From Methanococcus voltae (GTDB lineage: Archaea; AGJL01; Methanococci; Methanococcales; Methanococcaceae): DNA of 64,000 nt. Below are positions 54,661 through 64,000 of this stretch, one piece after another. Under the pieces are notes generated by a model. That model saw nothing but the letters and a program-made list of their open reading frames with translations. It was not told where the DNA came from and ran no database searches. The stretch lies in the NCBI RefSeq assembly GCF_024807655.1, contig NZ_JANUCR010000001.1:372001-436000 (forward strand), in the 5' to 3' direction. How positions within the stretch are numbered: position 1 is the stretch's first letter; every line of letters begins with the position of its first letter. The translations under genes and the position numbers were made by a program.

Positions 54661-54780
54661 ATGAGGGGTGGGAATGGGATAGGAGATAAAAATATCTCCC
54701 ACACGGTGTTATCAGTAGTGATGAGGGGGTATGAGGGGGTTAAAAATATCACTACTATCCCGCACCGTGCATAACATTAG
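54661..54780. ncRNA. Candidate structured RNA upstream of hdrA
   Basis: A GC-rich island in a nearly all-A/T intergenic region. Perfect complementary segments: 54676-54682 with 54755-54761, 54682-54688 with 54693-54699, 54702-54708 with 54763-54769, 54714-54722 with 54748-54756, and 54707-54712 with 54771-54776. Some cross or compete. The 3' part can be drawn as an archaeal H/ACA guide: lower stem, pocket, upper stem, then an ATA box 14 bases from the upper stem. The apical loop holds a tandem ATGAGGGGGT. The strand and class are not settled. Confidence 0.5.
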
Positions 54781-54839
54781 TATTAATTACTCGTATATAT
54801 AATTTACTATGAATGTACATATATAAATTTAGTTTATAT

Positions 54840-54897
54840 ACTAACTAAATATACTAACTAAATATACTAACTAAATATACTAACTAAATATACTAAC
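54840..54897. repeat. 13-base tandem repeat ACTAACTAAATAT
   Basis: Four perfect copies of ACTAACTAAATAT and a partial fifth, about 60 bases after the GC-rich island and 430 bases upstream of hdrA. No spacers, so it is not a CRISPR. Confidence 0.95.
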
Positions 54898-55243
54898 ATT
54901 TACAATATCAAATCTTAATATATCTATGATAGTATGAAAGACATATTTATAAAGATAATTAACTATCACCAAGAATATTAATCATTTTAATATCACATTA
55001 TGTATTTAGATAATCAATTTACTATTAACATTTTTTAAAATCATATTATCAAATTTAAAAAATAATGTATATATATTTGATTAAAAATATAATTAGTTGT
55101 AATTATTAAAAATAAAATTATAAAGACGCTATTTTAACATTTCAATAATATTTAACCATAATTAAATTAAAAGAACATTTTTTAAAAAACTATTTTATTT
55201 TATAATAACTAATAACACCCATTAAGAAAATTAAGAGTATATC

Positions 55244-55254
55244 CTTATATAATA
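55244..55254 (+). promoter_or_regulatory. Probable TATA element of the hdrA-vhu transcription unit
   Basis: CTTATATAATA lies 71 bases upstream of the hdrA ATG. This would give a leader of about 45 bases containing a 7-bp hairpin and the strong ribosome binding site GGAGGTGA. Similar strings are frequent in this AT-rich DNA, so it is a suggestion only. Confidence 0.35.
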
Positions 55255-55324
55255 ATGTGAGTGTATTATAAATGTATACATATTTGCACATACATTATTA
55301 TTTGTTTAATGTGGAGGTGAATCC

Positions 55325-57304
55325 ATGAGTGACCCCAAAGTGGGGGTTTTCGTTTGTTACTGTGGTTCTAATATCAACGGTGCAGTGGATTGTGAAGCAG
55401 TTAAGGACTTTGTTTCTAAACTCGATGGAGTTGTAGTTGCTGACACCTACCCTTTCATGTGTGCTGACCCTGGTCAAAATCTTATTAAAGATGCTATTAA
55501 AGAGCACGGGTTGGACAGAATTGTGGTAGCAGCATGTACTCCTAAAATCCACGAACCTACGTTTAGAGCTTGTTTATCAGAAGCAGGCATATCCCCATAT
55601 TATTTAGAGTTTGTGAACATAAGAGAGCACGATGCTTTCGTTCATATGAATGACGTAAAAGCTGCAACAGATAAAGCTAAAGAATTAATTGCAGCAGGTA
55701 TTGCGAGAGCTAAAAGACTTGAGGACGTACCTCAAAAAGTTGTGGATGTAGACAAGAGCTGTATGGTAATAGGTGCAGGTATTGCAGGTATCCAATCTGC
55801 ATTGGACCTTGCTGACCAAGGCTTTAAAGTATATCTTGTAGACAAAGACGAGTCAATCGGCGGAAGAATGGCACAATTAGCTAAAACTTTCCCAACCGAT
55901 GACTGCGCAATGTGAATTCTCGCACCGAAAATGGTTTCGGTGGCTAACCACCCTAACGTGGAATTATTGACTTACACAGAAGTTAAAGATATTGATGGAT
56001 ACATTGGTAACTTCAATGTAAAACTTGAGAAAAAAGCAAGATACATTGACGAAATTACCTGTACCGGTTGCGGTGCTTGTGCTGCAGTATGTCCTATAGA
56101 GATACCTAACGAATTTGATTTAGGTTTAGGTACCAGAAAAGCGATATACGTACCATTCCCACAAGCTGTACCTTTAGTATATACAATTGACATGGAACAC
56201 TGTATTAACTGTGAACTTTGTTCAAAAGTATGTGCTGCAAAAGCTGTAAGATATGACCAAAAACCTGAAGAAGTAGAAATTAAGGTTGGTACAATTATCA
56301 CAGCTACAGGGTACGATGAATTTGATGCTACACAAAAAGAAGAATACGGTTATGGAGTTTATGACAACGTTATCACAACCTTAGAAATTGAAAGGATGAT
56401 AAACCCAGCTGGTCCTACCGGCGGTCATGAAATCAGACCAAGTGATGGTAAACACCCTCACAGAACTGTATTTGTTCAGTGTGTTGGTTCAAGAGACGAG
56501 AAAGTGGGCAACCCATACTGTTCAAGAGTATGCTGTATGTTCGCACTCAAAAACGCTCAATTAATGAAAATGCACGACCCTAATGCAGAAGTGTACATTT
56601 GCTACATGGATATAAGAGCATTTGGTAAAGGCTATGAAGAATACTATAAAAGAGCACAAGAACAGTTCGGTGTTAGATTCATTAGAGGAAGACCTGCAAC
56701 TGTTATTGAAGACCCTGAAACTAAAAACTTAACCGTTAGAGTTGAAGATACGTTATTAGGCGAAATCTTAGAGATTGACGCTGACTTAGTTGTATTATCA
56801 GCTGGTTTAGTAGGTAAAAAGGAAACAAAAGACTTAGCTAAAATGATGGGCGTTGATGTAGGACCTGAAGGGTTCTTTAAAGAATCACACCCTAAGTTAG
56901 CTCCAGTTAACACAAAAGTTGACGGTATCGCAATTGCCGGAGTTGCACAAGGACCTAAGGATATTCCTGACACAGTAGCACAAGCAAAAGGTGCTGCAAG
57001 TGCTGTGGCTATCCCGATGTCACAAGGTAGCTTCAAAATTGAAATGATTAGAGCAACTGTTGACGAAGATGTATGTGGTGGATGTAAAGTATGTGCAATA
57101 ATGTGCCCATATAATGCAATTACATACGAGGAAAAAGAAGGTCATTTAGTGGCTATAACAGACGATGTTGCATGTAAAGGTTGTGGAGCATGTGCAGGTG
57201 CATGTCCAAGTGGTGCTATGCAGTTAAGATACTACAGAGACTCACAAATCTTAGATTCAATTGACGGAATGTTAGATGCAGCTAAAATGATTAATAACGA
57301 ATAA
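55325..57304 (+). CDS. hdrA: Heterodisulfide reductase subunit A, selenocysteine-containing
   Basis: FAD subunit of the CoM-S-S-CoB heterodisulfide reductase, where flavin-based electron bifurcation reduces ferredoxin. One 659-residue protein is read through UGA at 55913-55915 (Sec197), in DDCAMUILAPKM, where other HdrA proteins have Cys. Domains: N-terminal unit with FVCYCG, FAD motif VIGAGIAGIQSALDLADQG (about 152), and four [4Fe-4S] motifs, CTGCGACAAVC, CINCELCSKVC, CGGCKVCAIMC and CKGCGACAGAC. GGAGGTGAATCC precedes the ATG. Without Sec decoding it would look like two genes. No canonical SECIS is visible in its 3' UTR. Confidence 0.97.
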
Positions 57305-57346
57305 TTAATTAAATTTATTTAAAAATATCTTTAATTAATATCTTAT

Positions 57347-57388
57347 TTAATATTTAATAATATTTTAAACGATATTATTAAATATTAA
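57347..57388 (+). repeat. 17-bp all-AU hairpin after hdrA
   Basis: Perfect inverted repeat, 57347-57363 with 57372-57388, loop TTTAAACG. It lies 43 bases past the hdrA stop, where a SECIS is expected, but lacks the GAA/A internal loop and GC pairs of archaeal SECIS elements. It may be an mRNA-processing or stability element, or an unusual recoding element. Confidence 0.8.
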
Positions 57389-57494
57389 TGAAAAATGTAT
57401 GTAATTCAAAATAAAGTAATATTAATTAATATTAATCAATAATATTACTGAATAATCAATATTCTATAAAAATAAAATATAGGAAGGGATAACA

Positions 57495-57896
57495 ATGGCC
57501 GAACCTATAATTATGGCATTCATTTGCTATCAATGAGGTTATGGTGCTGCTGATTTAGCAGGTACCAGTAGGATGCAATACCCAGCAAGCGTTAGACCTA
57601 TAAGAGTTCCATGTACAGGTAAATTCGATATTACCTACGCATTGAGAGCATTCCAAAAAGGTGCTGATGCAGTATTTGTTGCAGGTTGAAAACCTAACGA
57701 GTGTGCATTCGAAACAGGTAACTTCAGAGCGGAAGAAAGGGTTAAAATGACCAAGCAAATTCTCGATGAAATGGGAATCGGTGGAGAAAGAATCGAAATG
57801 TTCTTCATGAGTGGAGCAGACGCAGGAAAATTCACCGAAGCTGTCAAAGAAATGACTGACAGAGCTAAAAAATTAGGTCCAAACCCATTAAAATAA
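57495..57896 (+). CDS. vhuD: F420-non-reducing hydrogenase subunit D, with two selenocysteines
   Basis: Small [2Fe-2S] protein linking the Vhu hydrogenase to HdrA. It is 133 residues when UGA codons at 57534-57536 (Sec14, in FICYQUGYGAAD) and 57687-57689 (Sec65, in FVAGUKPNECAFETGN) are read as Sec. Both replace cysteines of the MvhD/HdrD-type motif. Every ORF caller would break it, as no single ORF covers it. GAAGGGATAACAATG gives the start. A SECIS hairpin and a second GC hairpin follow the stop. Confidence 0.95.
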
Positions 57897-57923
57897 GTAA
57901 AGAAGTAAGAAAAAAGAGGATGA

Positions 57924-57954
57924 GTTTTACAGGAAACCTATGGACTTGTAAAAC
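57924..57954 (+). promoter_or_regulatory. SECIS element of vhuD
   Basis: Hairpin in the 3' UTR, 28 bases after the stop. GTTTTACA (57924-57931) pairs with TGTAAAAC (57947-57954), and the upper part GGAAACC-TAT-GGACT holds the purine-rich GAA/A internal loop and CC/GG pairs typical of archaeal SECIS. It must serve two UGA codons in this cistron and possibly the one in hdrA. Confidence 0.8.
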
Positions 57955-57959
57955 GACTG

Positions 57960-57972
57960 CCCCACGTTGGGG
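57960..57972 (+). promoter_or_regulatory. GC hairpin between vhuD SECIS and vhuG
   Basis: CCCCA (57960-57964) pairs with TGGGG (57968-57972) with a three-base loop. It is followed at once by ACCTT...AAGGT, whose 3' arm includes the first bases of the vhuG ribosome binding site GGTGAT. Translational coupling or masking of vhuG is possible. Confidence 0.45.
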
Positions 57973-60434: not shown

Positions 60435-60470
60435 TTTTTTAACCGAACCCATTGGGAGGTAAAAAATTAT
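60431..60470 (+). promoter_or_regulatory. SECIS element of vhuU
   Basis: A strong archaeal SECIS. The stem of ATAATTTTTTAACC with GGTAAAAAATTAT (one bulged A) carries the GAA (60445-60447) / A (60457) internal loop, then CCC/GGG with an ATT loop. It begins at the last base of the final codon, so the ribosome finishing vhuU must melt its base. This fits the 3' UTR position of SECIS elements in methanogens. Confidence 0.93.
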
Positions 60471-63743: not shown

Positions 63744-63786
63744 ATACTTACAAAATACGTCTTGAAGAATTAAACTCAATTATTTG

Positions 63787-63814
63787 TTAAAGGGGAACCT
63801 TTTGGACCCTTTAA
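63787..63814 (+). promoter_or_regulatory. SECIS element of fwuB
   Basis: Hairpin 119 bases after the stop. TTAAAGGG (63787-63794) pairs with CCCTTTAA (63807-63814), with the GAA (63795-63797) / A (63806) internal loop and CC/GG closing a TTTT loop. It is an almost ideal archaeal SECIS. Confidence 0.93.
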
Positions 63815-64000
63815 TAAAAAATATTTTTTTATAATTTTTTATTGCATATCTAAGATATATCAAACTTTTTTTAAGCATTTAATATCAATTTAATATCAAT
63901 TTTTAATTTATATATATTAAATTATATAATGTATAAAATAATAGAATAATAGAATAGTATCTAAAATATCCAATATAAAATAATATTAATTAATATTAGG

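Follow-up and report, generated by a model that had tools for sequence, protein, structure and literature searches.

Which RNA signal directs the insertion of selenocysteine (Sec) at the UGA codon of hdrA, when the region behind this gene holds no recognisable SECIS? In bacteria the Sec signal lies in the reading frame, whereas for archaea and eukaryotes it is described from untranslated regions (PMC11227280, PMC8211752, PMC9312934). The open-licence literature searched describes no archaeal SECIS in a coding region, placing these elements in the 3' UTR and, for fdhA1, in the 5' UTR. From comparison of sequences we think it probable that the ancestral SECIS of hdrA was lost and that a SECIS-like AAA/A hairpin, arisen within the ORF 97 nt past the UGA, is the candidate signal. 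Below, the window refers to the whole 64,000-nt stretch of DNA that was analysed.

The hdrA locus and the region behind it

The features of the locus, together with two SECIS elements that serve as controls, are as follows.

55325..57304, + strand: hdrA coding region (Sec-containing heterodisulfide reductase subunit A), one UGA read through
55913..55915, + strand: in-frame UGA of hdrA as Sec, context DDCAM-U-ILAPK, conserved in 32 of 32 loci
55923..55942, + strand: UGA-proximal 8-bp hairpin CACCGAAA-AUGG-UUUCGGUG, 7 nt past the UGA (weak lead, possibly chance)
57305..57494, + strand: hdrA-vhuD gap of 190 nt, no SECIS (present at this place in 24 of 32 relatives)
57347..57388, + strand: all-AU hairpin, 17 bp, not a SECIS
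57415..57449, + strand: second AU hairpin, 9 bp, not a SECIS
57495..57896, + strand: vhuD, with UGAs at 57534 and 57687
57915..57964, + strand: vhuD SECIS, core 57924-57954, AUGA 57920-57923, 64.3 bits (rival signal for the hdrA UGA)
60436..60466, + strand: vhuU SECIS (control), from the motif scan
63781..63820, + strand: fwuB SECIS (control), from the motif scan

The reading of the UGA as Sec, proposed earlier from the sequence alone, is borne out by the ORF at 55325-57304 with its in-frame UGA at 55913-55915. The same sequence-only reading had found no recognisable SECIS in the hdrA 3' UTR, and Rfam, a motif scan and a covariance model all agree with it. Rfam, which has no usable archaeal SECIS model, reported no SECIS in the 3' UTR at the gathering score and none permissively. 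The covariance model (R1), made from 22 hdrA SECIS elements of relatives, gave nothing above 8.7 bits over 54800-57950, compared with 47-73 bits in 24 relatives. Over the 64 kb, the motif scan placed the SECIS elements already noticed behind vhuD, vhuU and fwuB in its top three positions.

What does lie behind hdrA is a pair of AU hairpins. The 17-bp perfect hairpin with its 8-nt loop is present at 57347-57388 as described, and the second one exists as well, although it has 9 bp at 57415-57449 instead of the 8 bp at 57416-57448 originally given. Neither contains a GAA/A-type loop, so that both were correctly set apart from SECIS elements. Compared with shuffles, the hdrA 3' UTR folds more stably (z -3.9). 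We also considered the 17-bp hairpin as a repeat element and rejected this, the genome matches being partial and AU-rich and resembling low-complexity similarity. Close to the UGA, the fold at 55923-55942 is the most stable among the 32 hdrA genes; as a bacterial-type signal it was rejected, with a synonymous-codon test of p 0.013 and no uniqueness within hdrA. Upstream, a G-rich stretch with inverted repeats lies at 54663-54776, about 550-660 nt 5' of hdrA, and has no counterpart in the sister species G019 and G020.

The 3' UTR is best understood against its relatives. Our sample comprised 36 genomes of the order, 32 of which have a Sec-hdrA, and in 32 of 32 loci this gene is followed by a Sec-vhuD at a distance of 60-526 nt. 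The comparison gives a divided answer: a separate SECIS occupies the hdrA-vhuD gap in 24 of the 32, and there is none in this species and two sisters. In the 24 loci the element has GAA opposite A, with both-sided changes in 9 of 13 stem pairs (strong covariation). The motif scan missed the weak-stem gap elements of G016-G018 and the mismatched one of G004, which were recognised by eye and then included in R1. Five Methanocaldococcus-type species (G003, G008, G009, G013, and G014; this label and 'Methanococcus-type' are inferred group names) have a short truncated hairpin in the gap without a GAA/A loop. Its AUGA/GA flanks were found in four of the five by direct scan and in G013 by eye. These truncated loci (L070, L071, L076, L081, and L083) thus keep an AUGA-stem-GA hairpin from which the GAA/A loop has gone, a kink-turn without the recoding motif. 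Among the 32 loci, only those of this genome (G000), G019 and G020 lack any SECIS remnant in the gap. In a HdrA+VhuD tree these three group together with full support, nested within SECIS-bearing species. The truncated forms need three changes on this tree, bringing the total to four. The 3'-UTR SECIS of hdrA is therefore lost in this species and its two sisters. As a separate observation, G015 is a member of the genus without a Sec-hdrA locus, in which fdhA, fruA, sps and hesB still carry a UGA.

A candidate SECIS inside the reading frame

The candidate that we favour lies within hdrA itself and consists of the following parts.

56013..56049, + strand: candidate in-ORF SECIS, 97 nt past the UGA, inside hdrA
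56013-56020/56042-56049, + strand: basal stem, 8 bp
56021-56023, + strand: AAA of the internal loop, opposing A at 56041
56024-56027/56037-56040, + strand: apical stem, 4 bp, with loop 56028-56036

The stretch folds as UCAAUGUA-AAA-CUUG-(9)-CAAG-A-UACAUUGA, giving a core of the AAA/A type, at an energy of -8.6 kcal/mol (vhuD SECIS: -8.8). This is the minimum-energy fold, and its pair probability is 0.97 with 120-nt flanks. Measured against what defines an archaeal SECIS, it has the asymmetric NAA/A loop (AAA at 56021-56023 facing A at 56041) and an apical stem (4 bp) on a basal stem of 8 bp, for which 3 bp would be the minimum. Two usual but not defining features are absent, namely the two G-C clamps (the basal pairs are A-U and U-A, the apical ones C-G and U-A) and the terminal loop of 4-6 nt (9 nt here). 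It differs in location too, sitting in the hdrA reading frame instead of a UTR.

The earlier expectation of no SECIS model match within 55200-57494 held for R1, but the SECIS-like element lies inside that very interval. It was also overlooked by our first motif scan, which allowed loops of up to 8 nt and A, C, or G as the first base. The loop limit had to be raised from 8 to 9 nt before 56013-56049 appeared, and for the backgrounds the settings were equally wide or wider. On both strands of the window, the scan then gave only this element at -8 or better beyond the known vhuD and fwuB SECIS. The background of the genome itself is 2 such matches per 800 kb of strand sequence; random 317-nt stretches attain -8 in 0.2% of cases, and none of 400 synonymous recodings of hdrA reached -8.6. 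Among the 32 hdrA genes, only the three with no UTR element at all have a motif of clearly favourable energy in the 320 nt that follow the UGA (two others reach -1.0).

The protein sequence has changed at the positions that build the fold. T233K supplies the AAA, where all 29 other hdrA genes have T, and E231N and V241I supply opposite strands of the stem, the V at 241 being invariant in the 29 others. The element is identical in the three species, which is unremarkable since 23% of windows are as invariant. Because these species are so close, covariation cannot be drawn from the identity, and the three together amount to a single event.

We reconstruct the course of events as follows. The ancestral hdrA SECIS, 60-190 nt past the stop codon, disappeared in the common ancestor of G000, G019 and G020, and a SECIS-like AAA/A hairpin arose in the coding region, 97 nt past the UGA. 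A ribosome halted at the UGA should cover little of the downstream mRNA, so that a hairpin 90-107 nt away could remain folded. A putative archaeal SECIS-binding factor might read the two invariant adenines and help SelB deliver the Sec-tRNA. The ribosome would subsequently run through and unfold the element, which would refold behind it. Our best reading is that evolution in this group can shift a SECIS element into the ORF. Of the three ideas put forward from the sequence alone, that of a divergent SECIS comes nearest, save that the candidate is found inside the hdrA coding region and not in the 3' region.

Other possible sources of the signal

The most serious alternative is that hdrA lacks a separate element and depends on the vhuD SECIS, 2011 nt downstream on a polycistronic mRNA, which would then act on three UGAs, the one of hdrA and the two of vhuD. 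We regard this as unlikely, though worth weighing. The vhuD SECIS is present in 32 of 32 species, with a Sec-vhuD behind every Sec-hdrA, and nowhere from hdrA through vhuU (hdrA-vhuDGAU) do five or more U follow one another. In M. maripaludis, hdrA-vhuDGAUB-fwuB co-vary with selenium (PMC11097638), and in Asgard archaea hdrA and frhD mostly rely on one common SECIS, as has likewise been suggested for Methanococcales (PMC11227280). The five Methanocaldococcus-type species have neither a GAA/A gap element nor an in-ORF element, and for this reason sharing of the vhuD SECIS probably occurs there. A distance of 2011 nt, on the other hand, exceeds the range of 80-1300 nt (PMC2933860). Moreover, hdrA has retained its own SECIS in 24 of the 32 species despite the constant vhuD SECIS, which implies that sharing alone serves less well, and sharing leaves unexplained why an in-ORF element occurs just where the UTR element was lost (three species). 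Complementarity to hdrA in the sequences flanking the vhuD SECIS, in the manner of fdhA1, was looked for and rejected, being no better than in shuffles. The idea that the vhuD SECIS serves hdrA, raised from the start, is our preferred reading for the five truncated species and our second choice for the clade of the window, where this element may act in addition to the in-ORF one.

A 5'-UTR SECIS resembling that of fdhA1 is a very improbable source. Such elements exist and work (PMC11881835), and the three species share a conserved stretch of about 150 nt 5' of hdrA. In none of the three, however, do the 900-1500 nt upstream contain a SECIS-like motif of favourable energy, which speaks against the 5' element suggested earlier. 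It is just as improbable that the AU hairpin of the 3' UTR is itself a divergent SECIS. This hairpin is the longest perfect one in the 64-kb window, and, judged by eye, its stem has been kept through two double changes between G000 and the sisters; but it has no internal loop, the two adenines of the asymmetric loop are indispensable by mutagenesis (PMC11881835), and the AU hairpins of the sister species have a different form. Least credible of all is that the UGA is a stop in a decaying gene whose work is done by the full Cys hdrA paralogue in the genome, given the strong purifying selection past the UGA, where 44 codons differ from G020 synonymously and 3 by replacement, and the presence of both tRNA-Sec and SepSecS.

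Parallels in other genes and in known systems

The in-ORF element that we prefer for hdrA does not stand alone. A second FwdB-like gene with an in-frame UGA (L190, G000 C3:98962-100299) has no UTR SECIS and carries TATTGGGGAACCAATCCTATGGACTCAATG at UGA+90, an element of the GAA/A type. The literature searched names nine selenoproteins for M. maripaludis JJ, and this paralogue is not one of them. Six of its UGA orthologues have the in-ORF element, none of them with a 3'-UTR SECIS. In six others the 3'-UTR SECIS is strong (-16 to -20) and the ORF contains no such element. The in-ORF element of G023 takes a weaker G-U form, again without a 3'-UTR SECIS. Among relatives the two thus occur as alternatives, never both. 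The protein follows suit, reading WGTNPMDSMP in the in-ORF group and WGCNPMHSHP in the others. Compared across five species, no invariant run past the UGA is longer than this element (rank 1 of 277). In G018 (L205), the Sec codon is now TGT (Cys) and the element is kept with one loop change, like a pseudo-SECIS, and its conservation may for that reason be partly a matter of protein constraint.

For fdhA2, no UTR SECIS was found in seven species (L156, L159, L160, and L196-L199). All seven genus members have a GAA/A element at UGA+107, CAATACTTTT-GAA-GC.. ..GC-A-AGAAGTATTG, with a candidate terminal loop of 11 nt; in three of them the apical stem shows a compensatory swap from GCA/TGC to GCT/AGC. 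A motif at +204, seen in three species, is superseded by the conserved +107 element. As in-ORF controls, the first UGA of vhuD, fwuB and sps, which belong to genes with a UTR SECIS, showed no comparable element.

It seems rather likely, from these sequence patterns, that at least three genes of Methanococcus-type archaea (hdrA of this clade, the fwdB paralogue, and fdhA2) rely on an in-ORF SECIS some 90-107 nt past the UGA, that the protein yields to the RNA, that gain in the ORF goes with loss in the UTR, and that the SECIS position is mobile among 5' UTR, ORF and 3' UTR. If this is true, the archaeal Sec machinery can do without an untranslated signal, the Sec signal can jump in evolution, and the active-site neighbourhoods of methanogenesis enzymes have been rewritten to fit an RNA fold. 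Searches for archaeal SECIS elements restricted to UTRs would overlook such genes, of which the fwdB paralogue may be one.

Two further observations concern this clade. Its fdhA1 genes (L155, L157, and L158) have lost the 5'-UTR SECIS of G015-G018 and show a weak in-ORF candidate at UGA+74 (-1.5 kcal/mol), and the sps genes of G020 and G019 (L164 and L165) have a SECIS with UAA/A for GAA/A, a natural variant of the first base.

Among known systems, the closest to the hdrA element is the archaeal SECIS (the GAA/A, kink-turn-like type of fruA, sps and fwuB in M. maripaludis), with which it shares two stems around an NAA/A loop. AAA/A occurs naturally and is active in fwuB of M. maripaludis, and the spacing to the UGA is similar in fruA (88 nt in M. 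maripaludis (PMC9622424) versus 97 nt in hdrA). A reporter was functional when 520-679 nt separated the SECIS from its UGA (PMC9622424). The hdrA element deviates by its place in the coding region, its A-U/U-A basal pairs by the loop and its 9-nt terminal loop. In mutagenesis, an AAA/A loop was active, basal A-U pairs reduced but did not abolish activity, with about 60% left when the basal G-C clamp was changed to U-A, and the two adenines were indispensable (PMC11881835). The 5'-UTR SECIS of fdhA1, whose flanks may bring it to a point 43 nt past the UGA, is similar in lying outside the 3' UTR and maybe near the UGA; unlike fdhA1, hdrA has neither a 5' element nor flanking complementarity. The SECIS that Asgard archaea share between hdrA and frhD (PMC11227280) involves the same gene pair, but it is eSECIS-like and leaves hdrA without an element of its own, whereas most Methanococcales hdrA genes have their own SECIS. 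Bacterial SECIS elements, finally, lie in the reading frame past the UGA as the hdrA candidate does, but they have another fold, directly adjoin the UGA and are bound by the C-terminus of SelB, a part absent from archaeal SelB.
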